From Halorussus ruber (GTDB lineage Archaea > Halobacteriota > Halobacteria > Halobacteriales > Haladaptataceae), in NCBI RefSeq assembly GCF_004765785.1, contig NZ_SBIT01000018.1:1-64000 (forward strand): a stretch of DNA of 64,000 nucleotides. The letters are read 5' to 3'. Below, in pieces: positions 14,372-28,086 of the stretch. The position numbers and the translations under genes were made by a program. Below the pieces are notes generated by a model that saw only the letters and a program-made list of their open reading frames with translations, did not search any database and was not told the DNA's origin. Each line of letters starts with the position of its first letter. The first letter of the stretch is position 1.

Positions 14372-14592
14372 GATGAGACTCCCCGTCTCGAACGACGGAC
14401 AGGTAAGCCGCTTTCACGTTCAGAAGAAATTCCCACCTACTTCGTCTTTGTGTGAACATTAGTGGCACGGCAAATCTACACAAAGCCGTTCGCCCAACGA
14501 CAGCAGCGACAGAAACCAACGCGAGGCCCTCCCACCTTCGGCGCTGACCACCCGAACGTATTTGGGGGTTACTGCCGACGGTACTGTCGGTT

Positions 14593-15525
14593 ATGGGGGG
14601 AGACAGCGACTCGGCCTCGGCCGAGGAGGTTCTCATCGACAGCGAAAACGAACAGACGCGAGCAACTTCGCGGCGAGGAGTCTTGCGCGCTCTCGGCGGA
14701 GCGTCGGCGCTGGCGGCCACGCCAACGCTCGCCAGAGCAGGAGCAGGCAGCGACGCGGCGCAGGCCGACAGGACGACCATCGTCCTCGGCGCGCGGCGGG
14801 ACTACTGGCTCGGACTCCAGCCGCGGGCAATCGAGGGCCAGCGCAATCCCGCGCTCCAGTTGCGGCAGGGCGACCGCTACCGAATCGTCTGGGTGAACCT
14901 CGACGGCGAGCGACACCGGTTCAGGCTCCTCGACGCGGACGGAAACGCCGTGAGCCAGACCCGGGCCGCCGACCGGCAGGGTGCGACCCGAGCGACGCGA
15001 TTCAGGGCGGGGCGGGCGCTGGCCGGGTACGACTGCCAGTTCCATCCCGAGGAGATGCGCGGCGCGGTCGAACTCGGCGAGGGGTTCCCGACCACCGCGG
15101 CTCAGACGACCGAAGAAACCACGACCGAGGAGACGACTGCGACTGACGAGACGACGACGGGGGCAGGCGAGACGACGACGGAGACGGGCGGGGGGTCGGG
15201 CGACGTGGCCGTCGTCGATGTCGGCCCCTCGGGCCAGTACTTCCGGTTCGTGCCAGAGCGAGCCGAAATCCCGGTCGGCGGGACGGTCCGGTGGGAGTTC
15301 CAGAGCGCCGGCCATAACGTCTCGTGTCGGCCGGAGGCCGCCCGACAGGTCAGCCTTCCGGAGGGGGCCGAGCCGTTCTCGTCGTACCCCGAGGGCGAGT
15401 CCTTCCGCGTCGTGGCCGAGGGTGAGTCCTACGAACACACCTTCGAGACGCCCGGCGAGTACACCTACGTCTGCGTGCCGCACGTCGGCGAGGGAATGAT
15501 AGGTACAGTCGTCGTAACGGAATAG
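14593..15525 (+). CDS. Tat-exported protein with two cupredoxin domains
   Basis: A 310-residue secreted copper protein. The Tat motif is SRRGVLRAL (26-34). Domain 1 (~60-162) has type-1 copper ligands His108, Cys148, His151 and Met155. A Thr/Glu-rich linker (TTEETTTEE type, ~168-200) leads to domain 2 (~205-310), with His241, Cys294, His297 and Met302. It probably shuttles electrons outside the membrane. The sulfite-oxidase-like gene starts 90 bases downstream in the same direction, so this protein is a plausible electron acceptor for it (inference). No C-terminal anchor is visible. Confidence 0.88.
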   Translation: MGGDSDSASAEEVLIDSENEQTRATSRRGVLRALGGASALAATPTLARAGAGSDAAQADRTTIVLGARRDYWLGLQPRAIEGQRNPALQLRQGDRYRIVWVNLDGERHRFRLLDADGNAVSQTRAADRQGATRATRFRAGRALAGYDCQFHPEEMRGAVELGEGFPTTAAQTTEETTTEETTATDETTTGAGETTTETGGGSGDVAVVDVGPSGQYFRFVPERAEIPVGGTVRWEFQSAGHNVSCRPEAARQVSLPEGAEPFSSYPEGESFRVVAEGESYEHTFETPGEYTYVCVPHVGEGMIGTVVVTE

Positions 15526-18328: not shown

Positions 18329-19237
18329 ATGCCGAGTCGTCGAGGAGTCCTCCGTCGCGGTGCGGGCCTGTTCGTGGCCGGGAGCGCCGCGGGCGTCGGG
18401 GCGCTAGCGGTCCGGTCGAACGCCGACGACACGAACGCCGACGGACAGACGGCTTCCGACGGCTCCGCCGCGGATGCCGACGGACCCACCGACCGCGAGC
18501 GAGGACGGGCCACCGTCCTCGTGGCCGGGAGCCTCCAGCAAATCGCCACGAAGGTCGGCGCGGCCAGCGTCGAGGCCCACGGCAGCGTGGCCTGCCGCCG
18601 ACTCCTCGAAGACGGCCTGCGCGACCCGGACGCGGTGGCGCTGGCCGACCCCCGACTGTTCTCCGGACTGACCGACCGCGTGACCTGCTTCGCAACGAAC
18701 GCGCTGGTCGTGGCCCTCCGCGAGGACCTCGCCGACGAGTACGACGACTGGCGCGCGCTCGTCTCGGACTCGGACCGCACGCTCGGTCGGACCGACCCCG
18801 AGCGCGACCCGCTGGGCTACCGGACCGTGATGGCGCTCAGACTCGCCGACCGGAACGGCGGCGGAATCGACGCCGAGGCGGTCCTCGACCGGACCAACGT
18901 CTTCCCCGAGACGGGCCTCCTCCGGACGCTGGAGGCGGGCGGCATCGACGCCGCCTTCGCCTACCGGAACATGGCGGTCGAACACGACTTGCCCTCCCTC
19001 GCGCTCCCCGACCGCATCGACTTCTCGAACCCCGAGTTCGCCGACGACTACGCCCGAGCCAGCGTGGAACTGAACGACCGGACCGTCACGGGAGCGCCGA
19101 TTCGCTACGCCGCGAACGCCCGGACTCCTCGGGGCGAGGAGTGGGTCGAGAAACTGACCGGCGCAATCGAGACACTGGAGACGAGGGGATTCGGGATTCC
19201 GGACTCGTATCCCCGCCAAATCGACGTATCAGAGTAG
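18329..19237 (+). CDS. WtpA/ModA-like oxyanion-binding protein
   Basis: A 302-residue exported binding protein. The Tat signal is SRRGVLRRGAGLFVAGSAAG near the N-terminus, followed by a disordered Asp/Ala spacer. The mature domain follows the tungstate/molybdate binder pattern: VLVAGSLQQI, VALADPRLF, TDPERDPLGYRTVMALRLAD, the hinge AFAYRNMAVEHDLPSLALPDRIDFSNPEFADDY, and a C-terminal PRGEEWVEKL. The spacing suits WtpA best. There is no lipobox and no permease or ATPase gene next to it. Supply of molybdate would fit the molybdoenzyme 1.2 kb upstream (inference). Confidence 0.78.
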   Translation: MPSRRGVLRRGAGLFVAGSAAGVGALAVRSNADDTNADGQTASDGSAADADGPTDRERGRATVLVAGSLQQIATKVGAASVEAHGSVACRRLLEDGLRDPDAVALADPRLFSGLTDRVTCFATNALVVALREDLADEYDDWRALVSDSDRTLGRTDPERDPLGYRTVMALRLADRNGGGIDAEAVLDRTNVFPETGLLRTLEAGGIDAAFAYRNMAVEHDLPSLALPDRIDFSNPEFADDYARASVELNDRTVTGAPIRYAANARTPRGEEWVEKLTGAIETLETRGFGIPDSYPRQIDVSE

Positions 19238-20502: not shown

Positions 20503-21894
20503 CTACTCGACCAGCGACGGCTTCTCGAAGTCCATCCCGAGGTCGTCCTCGACCCCGAGGAGAGCCGCGAGCGTCGGCGCGACCTGCCGGGCGTCTACTT
20601 CGCTCGGCACCGCCGAATCCGGTGCGGCCGGGCCGCCGAAGGCACAGATACCACCCATGTCGTCGTCAATCCGGCCGTGCGACCCGCTGATTCTCGACGG
20701 CGAGAGCGAGACGGGAGCGTTCTCCCCGAAGAAGAGTTCGCAGGGGTCGAATCCCGGCTTGGCGTGGATGTCCATGTCAGTCGCGTAGGCGGGCGGCTCC
20801 TCGTCCTCGGCCCACCAGTAGTACTGGAACCACGCGCTGGGTTCGGCCACGAGGACCAGCTCACCGGAGTTCTCGTGGTCGATGCCGTACTCGGCCTTGC
20901 CCTGCTCGCCCAGCACCTCGGCGACGCCTTCCAACTCGCCCAAGACTTCGCGGGCCTCCGAGACGGCTCCGGAATCGACGTAGACGTGCGCGGCCTGATG
21001 GTCCACCACGGCGAAGGCCTCGGAGGCCGGGATGTCCACGTCGGTTCCGGCCCCGCTTTCCTCGCCGCGCTCGCCCTCCTCGCTACCCTCGGAACGAGTC
21101 TGAAGCAGTCCGGCCTCGCGGAGCGCGCGATTCGGGAAGACCGAGGTCTCGACGCCGTGGAACCCGTACTCGCTGACGACGCTCACCGCCGTCTCGCTCC
21201 AGCGGTCGTCGCCCCGGAGGTGGTCCAGAAACTCCCCGACCATCGCGTCCACGGTTTCGACCGCCTCCAGAACTTCCTCCGAGTCCGGACCGTGGCGCTG
21301 AGCGTCGTAGTCCAGATGCGGGACGTAGACCCACAGCAGGTCGGGGTCGTAGCGCTCGACCGACTCGCGGGCCGCGGTCAGAATCCACTCGCTGGACTGC
21401 TCGTTCGCGCCCGGACCCCAGTAGTGGTGGAGCGGGAAGTGACCGTGTTCGGCCTCCAGCGCGTCGTAGAAGTCGTCGGGGTTCGTCCAGCAGTTCATCT
21501 CGATGAGGTCGTTGTTCTCGTCCTCGATGGGCGAGGGGGTCACCGCCACGTCGGCGTTCGTCCCGATGAGGTGCTGGAAGAAGAGGACGCCCGTCGTGAG
21601 CCCGGCATCGCTGGCGGCCTCCCAGATGCGCTCGCGGTCTCCTCGGTCGCGCTCCCAGAAGGCGACCGAATCCGACTCCCTATCGTACTCGCCGTTCGCC
21701 ACGTCCCCGTGGGCCGCCGGGGACTGGCCGGTCGCCAGCGTGGTCTGGACCGGAATCGTCACCGCGGGGAAGGGCGGTCGCAGGTCGGCGGCCGAGTCGC
21801 CGAGGAGGTCGGTCAGGTTCGGCGCGCGCCCGCTTCCCAGATACGCCGGGCGGAACCCGACCACGTCGAGGACGACGACGCGCTCGGCGGTCAT
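20503..21894 (-). CDS. Alkaline-phosphatase-superfamily phosphodiesterase, EboF-like
   Basis: 463 residues. It opens with VVVLDVVGFRPAYLG, where an Asp binds metal, followed by a Thr nucleophile candidate in FPAVTIPVQTTLATGQ. Other landmarks are WVYVPHLDYDAQRHGPDS, VVSEYGFHGV, FAVVDHQAAHVYVD, DIHAKPGFDPCELFF and SGSHGR. This order, including the WGP and the DIHxKPGxDPxELF motifs, is that of the nucleotide-pyrophosphatase-like protein EboF of the bacterial ebo cluster. No signal peptide is seen, so it should act in the cytoplasm. Its start overlaps the stop of the inositol-phosphate synthase gene by four bases (ATGA), implying coupled translation. Start ATG at 21894. The acidic insert SEGSEEGERGEESGAG (~270-286) is haloarchaeal. 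Substrate unknown. Confidence 0.82.
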   Translation of the reverse strand: MTAERVVVLDVVGFRPAYLGSGRAPNLTDLLGDSAADLRPPFPAVTIPVQTTLATGQSPAAHGDVANGEYDRESDSVAFWERDRGDRERIWEAASDAGLTTGVLFFQHLIGTNADVAVTPSPIEDENNDLIEMNCWTNPDDFYDALEAEHGHFPLHHYWGPGANEQSSEWILTAARESVERYDPDLLWVYVPHLDYDAQRHGPDSEEVLEAVETVDAMVGEFLDHLRGDDRWSETAVSVVSEYGFHGVETSVFPNRALREAGLLQTRSEGSEEGERGEESGAGTDVDIPASEAFAVVDHQAAHVYVDSGAVSEAREVLGELEGVAEVLGEQGKAEYGIDHENSGELVLVAEPSAWFQYYWWAEDEEPPAYATDMDIHAKPGFDPCELFFGENAPVSLSPSRISGSHGRIDDDMGGICAFGGPAAPDSAVPSEVDARQVAPTLAALLGVEDDLGMDFEKPSLVE

Positions 21895-23093
21895 GCTGTA
21901 TCCTCCAGATACCGCTCGGCGTACTCGTCCAGCAGGTCGAACTGCCGCGAGAGGTCGTGTTCCTCGACGCCCATCGGGGCCTTGAAGAACGAGGCCAGTT
22001 GGGGCTGAAGCCCGGACTCGCCGTGTTCGTCGGCGTGGGCGACGAGTCGCACCAAATCGAGGACGAGCGGCGCGGCCAGCGCCGAGTCCGACCCCTCCCA
22101 CGTGAACTGCATCGTCATCTCGGTGTCGAGAAAGCCCTCGAAGTGGATGTAGTCCCACGCGGTCTTCCAGTCGGAGAGCGAGGGCGTGTAGTCGATTCGG
22201 ACCCGGTTGTGCCCGATGTCGGGCAGAATCGAGTCGAGGACGCCCCCTTTGCTCGCCAGCTTTCCGGCCTCGTTTTCCTCGTCTTCCAGTACCTTTCCAT
22301 CGGTATTCCCGAGGATATTGTGTCCCTCCCACGACATGACTCGGAGGTTCCGCCCGGCGAACATCGGCGCGAGCGCCGACTTGACCAGCGTCTCGCCGGT
22401 CTTGGCGTCCCGACCCATGTGGGCCACGCCCTCGTCGCGGGCCACCTCTCGCAGTCCGCCGAGCGCCGACCCCGTACTCGGCGTGAAGTTGACGTAGGGG
22501 TGGCCCTCGACCAGCGCGGCGTAGGCGTAGAGCGAACTCGCCGGGAGGTCGGAATCGTCCTCGGCGACGGCTCGCTCGAACTCCTCGCGGGTGGCGTATC
22601 GCTCCGCCTCGGCCAGTTCCGGTTCGGTCGAGGCCACGTTGACCACGACGATTCTGTCGAGACCGTGGTCGCTCCGGAAGGTCTCGTAGTCGTCCCGAAT
22701 CTGGGCGACGACCTCGCCCACGCTAAAACGCTCTTCCAGTCGGTCGCGGTCGCTCAGGTCGGCGACCGCGTTGCCGCAGTTGACCGCGGTCCCGGCCCGG
22801 ATTCGGCCGTCGATTTCCCGGAGGTCGTCCGCGACCGCCTCGACCGTCTCCGAGTCCGGCACCCCGCTCTCGGAGAGGTCTCTTGCGGTCTCGACCACGC
22901 TCGTCTCTCGGATGTCGTGCCCGCCGAAGCGTAACTCCTCGACCGCCGGGAGGTCCAACTCCGAGTAGGGTCTCCTCCCCGTCACCATCCCCGTCTGGTC
23001 CGTTTCACCGCGAGCGACCGCTCTCGCCCCCGCCATCGCGGTCGTCGCCACGTTTCCCCGCGCTCCGATTAGCCACACACCTGTCTCGGTCAT
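21891..23093 (-). CDS. ino1: Inositol-3-phosphate synthase (Ino1/MIPS family)
   Basis: A 400-residue myo-inositol-1-phosphate synthase homologue, which cyclises glucose-6-phosphate with bound NAD+. The N-terminal Rossmann motif is WLIGARGNVATTAMAGARA. Family hallmarks follow: NCGNAVADL, VNVASTEPE, YVNFTPS (for NFTPS), MGRDAKTGETLVKSALAPMF, VMSWEGHNILGNTDGKVL with catalytic lysines nearby, and DYTPSLSDWKTAWDYIHFEGFL. In archaea the product feeds inositol lipids or di-inositol phosphate. Here it leads an operon with the EboF-like gene and is divergent from the EboB/E/C-like operon. I infer that it takes the place of the EboD cyclase of bacterial ebo clusters. Confidence 0.9.
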   Translation of the reverse strand: MTETGVWLIGARGNVATTAMAGARAVARGETDQTGMVTGRRPYSELDLPAVEELRFGGHDIRETSVVETARDLSESGVPDSETVEAVADDLREIDGRIRAGTAVNCGNAVADLSDRDRLEERFSVGEVVAQIRDDYETFRSDHGLDRIVVVNVASTEPELAEAERYATREEFERAVAEDDSDLPASSLYAYAALVEGHPYVNFTPSTGSALGGLREVARDEGVAHMGRDAKTGETLVKSALAPMFAGRNLRVMSWEGHNILGNTDGKVLEDEENEAGKLASKGGVLDSILPDIGHNRVRIDYTPSLSDWKTAWDYIHFEGFLDTEMTMQFTWEGSDSALAAPLVLDLVRLVAHADEHGESGLQPQLASFFKAPMGVEEHDLSRQFDLLDEYAERYLEDTA

Positions 23094-23143
23094 CCCGTAC
23101 GTAGAGGGCGGGGAGACCCTTCTGTGTTATGAGATAACTGAAA

Positions 23144-23164
23144 TATTTTCGCCGACCGAAAATA
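23144..23164. promoter_or_regulatory. Dyad in the divergent ebo-like promoter region
   Basis: TATTTTCGccgacCGAAAATA: an 8-bp inverted repeat with a 5-base centre, between the starts at 23093 (minus) and 23255 (plus). It could be a shared operator for the two divergent operons or part of their TATA elements. Confidence 0.4.
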
Positions 23165-23254
23165 CGCGCCGGAGAGGGCGCAAGCGAGGCGGTCGTCGGT
23201 ATATGTGGGATAAGTGGACGTAACGCCTTCATAACAAAGTCCGACGCGTGTCTT

Positions 23255-24064
23255 ATGCGAACGATGCGCATCATCGATCCGCACATGCACATGGTGTCCC
23301 GGTCGAGCGACGACTACGAGCGCGCTCGGCGGGCCGGAATCGAGTGCTGTATCGAACCGGCGTTCTGGAGCGGGACGGACAAGCAACACGCCGAGTCCTT
23401 TTTCGACTACTTCGAGCAGATTATCGACTTCGAGACGGAGCGCGCCGAGCGCGCCGCCGGGATGGACCACTACGTGACCATCGCGCTGGAACCCAAGGAG
23501 GCCAACTATCCCGAGATGGCCGAGCGCGTGATGGACGAGATTCCGGAGTATCTGGACCGCGAGAACGTGGTCGGGGTCGGCGAAATCGGCCTCGACCAAG
23601 GGACGGAGGAGGAAGAGTACGCCTTCCGCAGGCAACTCCGGATGGCCGAGGAGCGCGAACTCCCCGTCATCGTCCACACCCCCCACGAGAACAAGCCAGA
23701 GGGCACCGAGCGACTGGTCGAGATGATTCAGGACGAGGACGTGACCGAGGAGCGAATCGTCATCGACCACAACACCGAGAACACGGTCGAGACCTCCTTG
23801 CAGACCGACTGCTGGGTCGGGTTCACGCTCTACCCCGGCAAAATCGAGGACGAGAAGGCCATCGACCTGCTGGAGGAACACGGCACCGACAAGATGATTC
23901 TAAACAGCGCGGCCGACTGGGACCCCTCGGACCCGCTCGCGGTGCCCAAGGCCCGCGACAAGATGCTCGACAGGGGATGGGACCGCGAGGAGGTCCGGAA
24001 GGTCGTCTTCGAGAACCCCTACGAGTTTTTCGACCAGTCGCCGAACTTCGACTACGAGCCCTGA
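23255..24064 (+). CDS. TatD-like metallohydrolase, EboB-like
   Basis: A 269-residue TIM-barrel amidohydrolase. Metal ligands: His10 and His12 in IIDPHMHM, a Glu in VGEIGLDQ, His in VIVHTPHENK, His in VIDHNTENTV and Asp in NSAADWDPSDP. The stretches SRSSDDYERARRAGIECCIE, PAFWSG and VTIALEPKEANYPEMAERVMD are those of the EboB subgroup rather than of TatD DNases, so DNA is probably not the substrate. The likely substrate is the small cyclised metabolite of this cluster (inference). First gene of a three-gene operon; five bases separate it from the next gene. The ATG at 23264 is an alternative start. Confidence 0.85.
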   Translation: MRTMRIIDPHMHMVSRSSDDYERARRAGIECCIEPAFWSGTDKQHAESFFDYFEQIIDFETERAERAAGMDHYVTIALEPKEANYPEMAERVMDEIPEYLDRENVVGVGEIGLDQGTEEEEYAFRRQLRMAEERELPVIVHTPHENKPEGTERLVEMIQDEDVTEERIVIDHNTENTVETSLQTDCWVGFTLYPGKIEDEKAIDLLEEHGTDKMILNSAADWDPSDPLAVPKARDKMLDRGWDREEVRKVVFENPYEFFDQSPNFDYEP

Positions 24065-24069
24065 GACCG

Positions 24070-24897
24070 ATGGATTTCGGATTCTCCGCGAACGCGTTTC
24101 AGGAGTACGGACCGGTAGAGACGGTCGAAGTGCTGGCCGACATCGGATACGACGGCGTGGAACTGCTGTTCGGCGGGTCCCACCTCCACCCAGACGACAC
24201 CGACGAGGCCGACGTCGCCGCGGTCCGAGACGCGCTGGACGACACCGGCCTCGAAGTCAGCAACTGCAACGCGTTCATGGTGACGGCCGAGGATTTCCAG
24301 CACCCGTCCTACATCGAGGAGAACGCCGAGTACCGTCAACAACGCGTCGATTACACCCGGAAGGCGCTCGAACTGGCCGACGACTTCGACGCGGACCACG
24401 TCTCCATCCAACCCGGCGGGCCGATTCCCGAGGGGCAGTCCCGCGAGTGGGGAATGGAAACGTTCGCACAGAGCCTGAACGAGGTGATTCCGACCGCCGA
24501 GCGATTGGGAGTGGACGTTTTGGTCGAGCCGGAACCCGACCTGCTCGTCGAGACGACCGACCAGTTCCTCGACTTTGTGGAGATGGTCGATTCGGAAGCT
24601 GTCGGCTGTAATTTCGACGCCGGACACCTGTTCTGCGTCGGCGAGGACCCCGCAACAGCGGTCGAAACCCTCGGACCCTATACCCCTCACTACCACGTCG
24701 AGGACATCCCCGAGGACCGGTCGCACGAACACACCCAACTCGGGGATGGCGCGATGGACATCGACGGCTTCCTCGAAGCGGTGGACGACTCGGGCTACGA
24801 GGGGTTCGTCACGGTCGAACTCTACCCGTATCAGGAGACCGCCGAGGAGACCGCCCGCGAGTCCTACGCCTACCTCGAAGACCACGGGTGGGTGTGA
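24070..24897 (+). CDS. Sugar-phosphate isomerase/epimerase (xylose-isomerase-like TIM barrel), EboE-like role
   Basis: A 275-residue AP-endonuclease-2/xylose-isomerase-like barrel: FSANAFQEYGPVETVEVLADIGYDGVELLF, EVSNCNAFM, VLVEPEPDLLVET, NFDAGHLFC, HYHVEDIPEDRSHEHTQLGDG and VTVELYPYQ. Metal ligands are the conserved Glu, Asp, His and Glu in those strands. Enzymes of this fold isomerise or epimerise sugars and cyclitols. The gene occupies the slot held by the TIM-barrel EboE in bacterial ebo clusters, although it is shorter than EboE. It starts five bases after the EboB-like gene, and its stop codon abuts the next start. A paralog (28877-29725) lies 4 kb downstream. Confidence 0.85.
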   Translation: MDFGFSANAFQEYGPVETVEVLADIGYDGVELLFGGSHLHPDDTDEADVAAVRDALDDTGLEVSNCNAFMVTAEDFQHPSYIEENAEYRQQRVDYTRKALELADDFDADHVSIQPGGPIPEGQSREWGMETFAQSLNEVIPTAERLGVDVLVEPEPDLLVETTDQFLDFVEMVDSEAVGCNFDAGHLFCVGEDPATAVETLGPYTPHYHVEDIPEDRSHEHTQLGDGAMDIDGFLEAVDDSGYEGFVTVELYPYQETAEETARESYAYLEDHGWV

Positions 24898-25854
24898 GTG
24901 GGTGTCGTGTCGGCCCTTCGCTCCGACTCTCGAAGCGTCAGAACCACCGCGTCGGCCTACGCCGAACTCGTCCGACTGGCGAACCTGTTCACCGCGCCGC
25001 CGGACGTGATTCTGGGCGCGGCGCTCGCAAGCGCCGCCGAGGTCGGAGTCGGGGCCGACGCCCCGGTTTCGCTCCGAGCGACCGCCGGACTCGCTGTCGG
25101 GTCGATGTTGCTCTACGCCGGGGGTACGACGCTCAACGACTACTTCGACGCGCCGAAAGACGCCGAGGAGCGCCCCGAGCGCCCGATTCCCTCGGGGCGT
25201 GTTTCGCGCTCGTCGGCGCTCCGGTTCGGCCTCGGTTTGCTCGGGGTCGGGGTAGTTGTCTCGGGCGCGGCGGCAGGTCTCTGGGGTGCGCTCGTCGCGG
25301 GGTCGCTCGCAGGGACCATCCTGCTCTACGACGGGGTGCTGAAGGGCGGGTCCGCCGGATTTCTGGCGATGGGGTCCGCCCGGGGCCTCAACGTCCTCCT
25401 CGGGACGACTGCGGCGGTCGAAATCTCGCCGGTCGGCCTTCCGGCGTGGGCGCTCGCAGTTCCGGTCGTGATTGCGGGCTACGTCGCCGCCGTGACGTAC
25501 ATGGCCGCCGAGGAGGCCTCCGGCGCGGAACGCCGGGCGATTGCGGTCGCCGGGGTGGGGGTCGGCGTGGCTTTCGCGGCAGTACTGGTCCTCCTCTGGA
25601 CGACTGCATCGGCCTCGCCGCTGGTCGGGACGGCGCTGGCTGGCGGCTTTTTGGCGTGGACGGGCCGGGTGCTCGCTGGGGCGTATCGGAACCCCGCGCC
25701 CGAGGTCGTCGGACCCGCGGTGGGCACCTGCGTCCTCGCGCTGGTGGTCCTCGACGCGGCGTTCGCCTCGGTCGCGGGCCTCAGATGGGCGTTCGCCGCG
25801 GTGGCGTTCCTCCTGCCAGCAATCGGTCTGTCACGGGCGTTCGACGTGTCGTGA
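24898..25854 (+). CDS. UbiA-family prenyltransferase-like membrane protein, EboC-like
   Basis: 318 residues with about eight or nine membrane helices. The start is ELVRLANLFTAPPDVILGAALA; the first Asp-rich motif is NDYFDAPKDAEERPERPIPSG. The second motif is weak (LLYDGVLKGG), as in EboC-type UbiA relatives. UbiA enzymes move prenyl groups onto aromatic or sugar acceptors in the membrane. Here the acceptor may be the product of the soluble ebo-like enzymes, which would give a lipid-linked or exportable compound (inference). The start is a GTG at 24898, directly after the stop of the previous gene, with no gap. Not MenA or archaeal DGGGP synthase by neighbourhood. Confidence 0.83.
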   Translation: MGVVSALRSDSRSVRTTASAYAELVRLANLFTAPPDVILGAALASAAEVGVGADAPVSLRATAGLAVGSMLLYAGGTTLNDYFDAPKDAEERPERPIPSGRVSRSSALRFGLGLLGVGVVVSGAAAGLWGALVAGSLAGTILLYDGVLKGGSAGFLAMGSARGLNVLLGTTAAVEISPVGLPAWALAVPVVIAGYVAAVTYMAAEEASGAERRAIAVAGVGVGVAFAAVLVLLWTTASASPLVGTALAGGFLAWTGRVLAGAYRNPAPEVVGPAVGTCVLALVVLDAAFASVAGLRWAFAAVAFLLPAIGLSRAFDVS

Positions 25855-26061
25855 GGGCGTTAGGAAATCGTGAGTTCGGTCGGAGCTATAACTTCAATAG
25901 GAATATCCGGCTTTACTCGGCGAATCGCAAATTCAGTTAGGAAACCGACTATTTCCTGCGGATAGACCGAGGCTAATCGCCGGTCGAGGACTGAAACTGT
26001 CGGTTAGGTAGTGCAAACGGTGTTACCAGACTATATAGAGAAGGATTGTCGGAAGTCCCGA

Positions 26062-28086
26062 ATGTCGAGAGATACCGAAGACAAATCGTCACGACGAACG
26101 TTTCTGAAAGCAACCGCGGCGACCGGCACGGTGGTCGCCGTCGGCGGCGTCGCCGTCAGCGGCGTAACAGGACAGGAGAGACAGGAGTACCGATTCGGCG
26201 GCGAAGTCGCCGGATGGCAGGGCAGAGCGCCGTCCCAAGTCGAGGGTCAGACCAACCCGACCCTCCAACTCAAGGACGGACAGGAGTACGCGTTTACGTG
26301 GGAGAATATCGACGGGCTTCCGCACAACGTCGCCCTCCTCAACCGCGAGGGCGAGGTCATCGAGCGCACCGAAATCATCTCCGAGCAGGGCGCGACACAG
26401 ACGCTCCAGTTCACGGCCAGCACGAACATGGCCGAGTACGTCTGCGAGGTCCACCCGGCGTCGATGCGCGGGAACATCCAGTTCGAGGGACAGACGACCA
26501 CGGCGGGCGAGGAGGAAGTCGAGCGGTTCATGCCCCGCGGCGCGGGCATCGGCGTCGAGCGGATAGCCGACGGGTTCGTTTCGCCGGTCGGTCTCGAAAC
26601 CGCACCGGGAGAGAGCGACCGCAGGTTCATCCTCGACCAAGTTGGCCAACTGTACGTCCACGGCCCCGACGGCCTGCAAGACGAACCGTTCCTCGACCTC
26701 GGCGATAAGACCGTGGACGTGGGCGGTCGTGAGGGAAGCGACTTCGACGAGCGCGGACTCCTCGGAGTGGCCTTCCATCCGAACTTCCAAGAGAACGGTC
26801 GGTTCTTCGTTCGGTACAGCGCGCCGCTCACGGAACCGCCGTTCGTGAGTAGCGCCGACTGGAGCAACGTGGAGGACCTCCAAGAGTACGACCACATGGA
26901 GGTGCTGTCGGAGTTCCAGGCCAGCGACGACCTGAGCAGCGCCGACCCCGAATCCGAGACGCGACTGCTGGAGATGCCCTCGCCCCAGTTCAACCACAAC
27001 GCGGGTGCCGTCGAGTTCGGACCGGACGGGTACCTCTACATCCCGACCGGCGACGGCGGGGACGCCGACGACACCGGACTCGGCCACGTCGAGGACTGGT
27101 ACGACGGGAACGAGGGCGGTAACGGACAGGACGTGACGCAGAATCTGATGGGCGGCGTCCTCCGCATCGACGTGGACAACGAGGGCGACGACCTGCCCTA
27201 CGCCATCCCGGACGACAACCCGTTCGCGGAAGGTGGCGAGTTCGCGGAGTACGACGGACTACCGGAACACTTCGCGTGGGGCCTCCGCAACCCGTGGCGG
27301 GCCTCGTTCAACGACGGCGAACTGTTCTCCGCCTCGAACGGACAGAACCTGTTCGAGCAGGTGGACATCATCCAGAGCGGCGGCAACTACGGCTGGAACC
27401 TCCAGGAGGGGACCCGCTGCTTCAGCACCGAGAACCCCAACGACCCGCCAGAGGAGTGCCCGACCGGAACACCTGACAACGTGCGGGGCGGCGAGGAGTT
27501 CATCGACCCCATCATCGAGTACCCCCACACCTACGAAGGCCGGGGCGTCGGCGTCTCGATCATCGGCGGGTACGTGTACAACAACGACGCTATCTCCGGA
27601 ATTCAGGGCAAGTACGTCTTCGGCGACTACAGTCGGACGGGTGCCGACCCGGCGGGTCGCATCTTCGCCGCGACGCCTCCGGAGGGCGAGGGAATGGGGA
27701 CCGAGACCGGCCAGACGACGACTGAGGGCGGCCAGACCACGACGGCCGACGGCGGCCAGACGACCACCGCGCAGGGCGGCGACGACCAGCTCTGGGACCT
27801 CGAAGAACTCCAGGTAGCCGGAGCCCCGAACGGCAAGCTCAACAAGTTCATCCTCTCGTTCGGCCGGGATAACGAGGGTCAACTCTACGTCCTCGCCAAC
27901 GACACGGGTGTCATCACCGGCGAGACCGGCGAGGTCTTCCGAATCGTCCCGGCAGGCGAGGGCGAGGAAGTGACCACGCCTCAGATGGAGACGACCACGA
28001 CGATGGCCGACGGTGAAACCACCACGATGGCAGAAGGTGAGGCCACGACCGAAGGCGGTGGCGAGACGACGACGACGGGCAACTGA
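26062..28086 (+). CDS. Cupredoxin-PQQ-type sugar dehydrogenase fusion, Tat-exported
   Basis: 674 residues. Tat motif SSRRTFLKA (9-17). A cupredoxin domain (~40-142) has copper ligands His88, Cys128, His131 and Met135, close to domain 1 of the double cupredoxin at 14.6 kb. After a TTTAGEEE linker comes a soluble-glucose-dehydrogenase-type six-blade propeller (GSDH family): VGLETAPGESDRRFILDQ, ERGLLGVAFHPNF, FNHNAGAVEFGPDGYLYI with the catalytic His region, and GLRNPWRASF. A Thr-rich insert (TTTEGGQTTTADGG, ~555-580) interrupts the propeller. The protein probably oxidises sugars outside the cell and hands electrons to its own copper domain (inference). ATG 26062 is preferred over a GTG at 26011 for Tat-signal spacing. 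Confidence 0.87.
   Translation: MSRDTEDKSSRRTFLKATAATGTVVAVGGVAVSGVTGQERQEYRFGGEVAGWQGRAPSQVEGQTNPTLQLKDGQEYAFTWENIDGLPHNVALLNREGEVIERTEIISEQGATQTLQFTASTNMAEYVCEVHPASMRGNIQFEGQTTTAGEEEVERFMPRGAGIGVERIADGFVSPVGLETAPGESDRRFILDQVGQLYVHGPDGLQDEPFLDLGDKTVDVGGREGSDFDERGLLGVAFHPNFQENGRFFVRYSAPLTEPPFVSSADWSNVEDLQEYDHMEVLSEFQASDDLSSADPESETRLLEMPSPQFNHNAGAVEFGPDGYLYIPTGDGGDADDTGLGHVEDWYDGNEGGNGQDVTQNLMGGVLRIDVDNEGDDLPYAIPDDNPFAEGGEFAEYDGLPEHFAWGLRNPWRASFNDGELFSASNGQNLFEQVDIIQSGGNYGWNLQEGTRCFSTENPNDPPEECPTGTPDNVRGGEEFIDPIIEYPHTYEGRGVGVSIIGGYVYNNDAISGIQGKYVFGDYSRTGADPAGRIFAATPPEGEGMGTETGQTTTEGGQTTTADGGQTTTAQGGDDQLWDLEELQVAGAPNGKLNKFILSFGRDNEGQLYVLANDTGVITGETGEVFRIVPAGEGEEVTTPQMETTTTMADGETTTMAEGEATTEGGGETTTTGN

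Follow-up and report, generated by a model that had tools for sequence, protein, structure and literature searches.

The window (the whole 64,000-nucleotide stretch of Halorussus ruber DNA that was analysed) contains a gene cluster made up of two divergent operons, one of which is headed by ino1, the gene for inositol-1-phosphate synthase (Ino1). This arrangement, described in the first-pass annotation, was confirmed by the coordinates, the Pfam matches and the gene spacing (Table 1). On the minus strand the PF01663 gene overlaps the end of ino1 by four bases, and the plus-strand genes EboB, TIM1 and UbiA follow one another with an operon-like spacing of 0-5 bases. TIM2, a core member that lay beyond the region annotated earlier and was missed there, is separated from UbiA in this genome by an inserted sugar dehydrogenase gene. 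As the sequences show, the conserved core is composed of six genes: ino1, eboF, eboB, TIM1, eboC and TIM2. No regulator site was identified in the 161-base intergenic region, and a scan of the same region with bacterial promoter models, which are ill-suited to archaea, gave no match. A cupredoxin-domain protein (14548-15522, plus strand) and a WtpA-related (tungstate-binding) protein (18329-19237, plus strand) are encoded upstream; no link of either to the cluster was seen.

Table 1. Features of the cluster, with positions in the window and the basis of each assignment
Feature	Positions	Strand	Basis
EboF-type PF01663 protein, 463 aa, altered metal site	20503-21894	-	Pfam (E 2e-55); identity, tree, Ebo-wide substitutions
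ino1, inositol-1-phosphate synthase, 400 aa	21891-23093	-	Pfam; whole-genome search; alignment to A. fulgidus Ino1 1u1i
161-base region between divergent operons, presumed promoters	23094-23254		Sequence reading
EboB, TatD-type metal-dependent hydrolase, 269 aa	23255-24064	+	Identity to bacterial EboB; tree; metal ligands
TIM1, xylose-isomerase-like or sugar isomerase/epimerase-like TIM barrel, 275 aa	24070-24897	+	PF01261; NCBIfam; trees; model and fold search
EboC-type UbiA membrane prenyltransferase, 318 aa	24898-25854	+	NF035940 (below cut-off); tree; Asp-rich motifs
Accessory Tat-exported sugar dehydrogenase (GSDH) with copper-binding-like domain	26011-28086	+	Pfam; neighbourhood count
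TIM2, second sugar isomerase/epimerase-like barrel, 282 aa	28877-29725	+	Adjacent to UbiA in the majority of haloarchaeal clusters; clade with deltaproteobacterial ino1 loci

Ino1 is an anabolic enzyme with glucose 6-phosphate as its substrate. The protein encoded here matches both Pfam domains (PF07994 and PF01658) and was the single Ino1 found in a search of the whole genome to which the window belongs. It aligned to the A. fulgidus enzyme with a score of 309 bits, and its active site is complete, Asp225, Lys274, Lys278, Lys306 and Lys367 (A. fulgidus numbering) all being conserved. The Archaeoglobus enzyme (AF_1794, 1u1i), known from the context of inositol-lipid pathways, shares the family and the catalytic residues but belongs to a separate clade and is without ebo-type partners: in the Ino1 tree the haloarchaeal proteins formed one clade (100/100) that lay among bacterial Ino1s and apart from those of Archaeoglobi. 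EboD, the cyclase of the classical ebo operon, gave no match in the same genome (PF01761), and nothing scored above 26.5 bits in 382 genomes; the weak matches up to this value may be glycerol-1-phosphate dehydrogenases. EboA, EboG and EboE were not found around the haloarchaeal clusters in the loci that were read. The absence of EboA and EboD claimed in the first-pass annotation stood.

The distribution of the genes was surveyed in 392 Halobacteriales genomes, Ino1 being counted by PF01658. Ino1 was present in 58 and EboB in 57 of these genomes, and both were present in 52 (Fisher p = 6e-52, uncorrected for kinship between genomes). Conserved linkage to ino1, the loss of which in other haloarchaea had been named beforehand as contrary evidence, was found in 47 of the 52 genomes with both genes, which lay 10 kb or less apart in 17 genera and six families; in the other five the two genes were not linked on a contig. 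EboB occurred without Ino1 in five genomes and Ino1 without EboB in six. The common haloarchaeal order is the EboF-type gene (PDE) and ino1 divergent from EboB-TIM1-UbiA-TIM2, with variants, and the clusters are located on chromosomes and on plasmids; three Haloferax species carry one. Judged by these gene counts, about one seventh of the surveyed haloarchaea carry a six-gene relative of ebo. A GSDH-type dehydrogenase was encoded near 12 of 23 haloarchaeal clusters, and neither dehydrogenases nor transporters belong to the conserved core of these neighbourhoods. Two loci, L033 (on a Haladaptatus plasmid) and L043 (genome G078), contain all other core genes with no ino1 nearby, and Ino1 was not found elsewhere in G078 either; inositol uptake or a different cyclase might stand in for it there.

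Cluster-type ino1 was also seen on its own. In Halomarina (L080:7986-9230) it is without ebo genes and adjoins glycosyltransferase genes, a setting that hints at the enzyme's reuse for a different inositol pathway, and many Planctomycetota genomes (loci L093-L165) encode close Ino1 relatives with no ebo genes nearby. Such copies bear on an alternative in which Ino1 supplies archaeal phospholipids with their inositol head group, the ebo-type neighbours being incidental. The Haloferax volcanii Ino1, HVO_B0213, is filed under lipid head groups in a curated survey (PMC8305020), and the glycosyltransferase neighbours of the Halomarina gene would fit the same role. We nevertheless regard this alternative as highly improbable, because Ino1 occurs in only 58 of the 392 genomes and in 52 of those 58 together with EboB, the solo haloarchaeal copies nest within the cluster-type clade of the Ino1 tree and a CDP-alcohol transferase is absent from the core. 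HVO_B0215, called a dehydrogenase relative, would fit a sugar dehydrogenase near the H. volcanii ino1.

The assignment of the remaining proteins to Ebo families was examined by identity, by profile score and by trees, the comparison set for EboB and the PDE consisting of the Aureibacter, Azospirillum, Deinococcus and two Streptomyces ebo loci. Trees placing the TatD, UbiA and phosphatase proteins outside the Ebo subgroups would have spoken against the annotation; no such placement was obtained. The EboB assignment is secure: the protein is 42-44% identical to bacterial EboB over 96-99% of its length, its metal ligands are conserved, and the haloarchaeal proteins lie inside the EboB clade, split from Archaeoglobi-type TatD proteins at 100/100. 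For the UbiA protein the kinship to EboC held in part. Its best NCBIfam model is EboC (NF035940, 192 bits, E 1e-56) and in the tree it groups with Ebo UbiAs, not with four other UbiAs of the same genome, but the score does not reach the cut-off of 250 bits and the tree branches are long; the Asp-rich motifs are intact. The EboF-type protein is 34-42% identical to bacterial EboF and, in place of the canonical Asp-His, has the Glu-Tyr pair common to all Ebo PDEs aligned at that site; the PDE tree agrees with this lineage, but its outgroup is not clean. Kinship to EboF was in this way upheld. Using metal-ligand positions that we take to be those established for the nucleotide phosphodiesterase (NPP) family, four of the seven ligands were found to be replaced (by Val, Gln, Glu and Tyr) in all aligned EboF-type proteins, archaeal and bacterial, while the nucleophile Thr, one Asp and one His are retained. 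The NPP two-metal site was accordingly not found in the aligned Ebo PDEs, although the model of the EboF-type protein, of moderate confidence (pLDDT 80), still matches ENPP folds. The loss of four ligands makes the name phosphodiesterase unsafe for the Ebo family, which may not consist of phosphodiesterases.

The earlier description of an EboE-like TIM barrel did not survive. TIM1 scored 24 bits with the EboE model (NF035939, cut-off 250 bits) and fell in a separate clade in the trees, and its identification as EboE was rejected; TIM2 scored 22 bits against the same cut-off. EboE, the actinobacterial SPIE barrel and TIM2 formed three clades of their own (100/100, 100/100 and 97/91, respectively), the last uniting TIM2 of haloarchaea with TIM2 of deltaproteobacterial ino1 loci. 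TIM1 is 40-46% identical to its bacterial counterparts, and its monophyly was supported in one tree (95/98) but not in a second (p-AU 0.041). Since the two trees disagree, a single clean TIM1 clade is left open, whereas the TIM2 clade is robust. TIM1 matches PF01261, and its model (pLDDT 96) resembles sugar epimerases and IolI in fold as it does in sequence; Art22 was also a structural match, of which no description was found in a literature search. The catalytic residues of both barrels are intact in the alignments.

Ebo clusters were reportedly named in 2016. Compared with the ebo operon of bacteria and eustigmatophyte plastids (eboA-F, with an eboG variant), the haloarchaeal cluster has in common EboB, an EboC-type UbiA, an EboF-type protein and a sugar-phosphate cyclase; it differs in lacking EboA, EboG, EboD and EboE, in having Ino1 and two TIM barrels of other kinds in their place, and in the division of its genes between two divergent operons. 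The replacement of EboD by Ino1 had been put forward as an archaeal peculiarity. An archaea-only exchange was rejected, as the same replacement was found in Actinomycetota, on a Gemmatirosa plasmid (Gemmatimonadota) and in deltaproteobacterial MAGs; its presence in several bacterial phyla marks a widespread branch of ebo rather than an archaeal oddity. All Actinomycetota ebo loci that were read completely had ino1 and lacked eboD. The Streptomyces order is ino1, SCO3242-type UbiA, SPIE barrel, EboA, EboB, EboE, PDE, and other Actinomycetota have largely the same gene set. These clusters resemble the haloarchaeal one in that Ino1 replaces EboD beside a UbiA, a SPIE-type barrel, EboB and a PDE, but they keep EboA and EboE, have a single SPIE barrel of another clade and often lie within antibiotic clusters; SCO3242 (putative transferase) and SCO3243 (myo-inositol phosphate synthase) of S. 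coelicolor are listed in the CDA antibiotic cluster (PMC3610822). The Gemmatirosa plasmid carries EboE, EboG, EboB, PDE, UbiA, ino1 and SPIE without eboD.

In the deltaproteobacterial and planctomycete ino1-TIM loci (L099, L105, L129, L120 and L134), Ino1 and UbiA are accompanied by haloarchaeal-type TIM1, TIM2 or both, and in three of the loci also by EboB, in a gene order different from that of haloarchaea. L099 and L105 (deltaproteobacterial/proteobacterial MAGs) have ino1 with TIM2, TIM1, UbiA, EboB and PDE, L129 (a MAG) has ino1 with TIM2, EboB and UbiA, and in the planctomycete loci ino1 is accompanied by TIM1 and UbiA, with no EboB nearby. L105 further contains an EboG-like gene, and in L099 a gene for IPP isomerase overlaps the start of ino1. 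Six full EboD-type clusters (in Aureibacter, Azospirillum, Deinococcus, Mycetohabitans, Ketogulonicigenium and Salipiger) and a partial one in Gloeothece were without ino1. Loci of the Ino1 type lie on either side of the deep split in the EboB tree, which implies that the cyclase changed repeatedly or that one of the two types is ancestral. ScyD/ScyE-type or exported sugar-dehydrogenase proteins recur beside ino1-type clusters, as in Streptomyces camelliae (L039:5430-6632, a ScyD/ScyE family protein) and, as a weak sugar-dehydrogenase/ScyD/ScyE-type match, in L129 (6452-7936).

Taken together, the Ino1, EboB and TIM2 trees are most simply explained by a bacterial origin of the cluster, which haloarchaea most likely acquired by transfer. 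The nearest bacterial EboB rows are L099 and L129, both ino1-cluster loci (87/73, modest), and EboB and TIM2, as far as their trees go, point to deltaproteobacterium-like ino1 clusters as kin of the source. The respective trees did not favour an origin of Ino1 or EboB among Archaeoglobi-type relatives.

The best explanation, with a probability of about one half, is that the haloarchaeal cluster makes, rearranges and prenylates a cyclitol. Ino1 would convert glucose 6-phosphate to myo-inositol phosphate; TIM1 and TIM2 would isomerize or epimerize the cyclitol or its keto form, EboB would be a metal-dependent hydrolase among the cyclitol-modifying enzymes, and the membrane step, attachment of an isoprenoid to the cyclitol, would fall to UbiA. 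The EboF-type protein is given no step because its metal site is altered. The prenylated cyclitol could be the end product, perhaps completed by the exported sugar dehydrogenase where this is present, or a membrane carrier that moves a metabolite across, comparable with the proposed role of ebo in outward movement of the scytonemin monomer in Nostoc (PMC6282210). An isoprenoid-cyclitol product has been proposed earlier for ebo (PMC5133447). The proposal is supported by the fact that Ino1 and EboB occur almost exclusively together, even in genomes where the genes are unlinked, by the alternation of Ino1 and EboD beside shared partners, by the intact catalytic residues of Ino1, EboB, TIM1, TIM2 and UbiA, by the EboB, UbiA and TIM trees, by the overlap of IPP isomerase with ino1 in L099 and by the match of TIM1 to sugar epimerases and IolI. 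Against it were counted the UbiA score below the EboC cut-off, the missing metal ligands of EboF and the 11 genomes in which EboB or Ino1 occurs without the other. The earlier scheme, in which a sugar phosphate is cyclized, modified and then prenylated or moved in the membrane, stands as regards the exchange of the cyclase for an Ino1 with an intact site; its later steps are the conditional ones set out above.

A further point against a cyclitol acceptor is that the sole EboC relative assayed, Ubi-297, farnesylated quinoline acids, 8-hydroxyquinoline-2-carboxylic acid among them, and not cyclitols (PMC9235831). UbiA might accordingly prenylate another acceptor, such as an aromatic acid, with the Ino1/TIM branch supplying a separate sugar-like part or a signal, and the Streptomyces ino1-type clusters do have genes for the biosynthesis of peptides and aromatic compounds around them. 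We consider this unlikely: no aromatic-biosynthesis family recurred in the neighbourhood count of haloarchaeal clusters, and the acceptors of Ubi-297 were those supplied in the assay, so that its natural substrate may differ. Very unlikely is an operon for sugar or inositol catabolism in which polyols would be broken down by the dehydrogenase and the TIM barrels, the other genes being incidental. PF01261 barrels, GSDH, and Gfo/Idh/MocA genes or sugar transporters near some loci would fit such a role, but Ino1 is anabolic, UbiA is a membrane prenyltransferase and the dehydrogenases and transporters lie outside the core.

The alternation of Ino1 and EboD beside the same EboB, EboC and EboF partners suggests a cyclitol as the common theme of the family. 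It is possible, though doubtful, that ebo has a large inositol-based branch, with members in haloarchaea, deltaproteobacteria, Planctomycetota, Gemmatimonadota and Actinomycetota, and that a prenylated derivative of inositol serves this branch as its end product or export carrier; we know of no description of such a membrane molecule in archaea. No paper joining ebo with inositol was found in the literature searched, and the haloarchaeal inositol-type cluster is a real and conserved form of ebo that is apparently undescribed. Because the substrate of Ino1 is known, the cluster tells what kind of molecule to seek for an ebo chemistry that has been unsettled since 2016. H. volcanii is a genetic model. 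As Haloferax species carry the cluster and H. volcanii itself has the Ino1 HVO_B0213, a simple archaeal host is available for tests of what ebo does.
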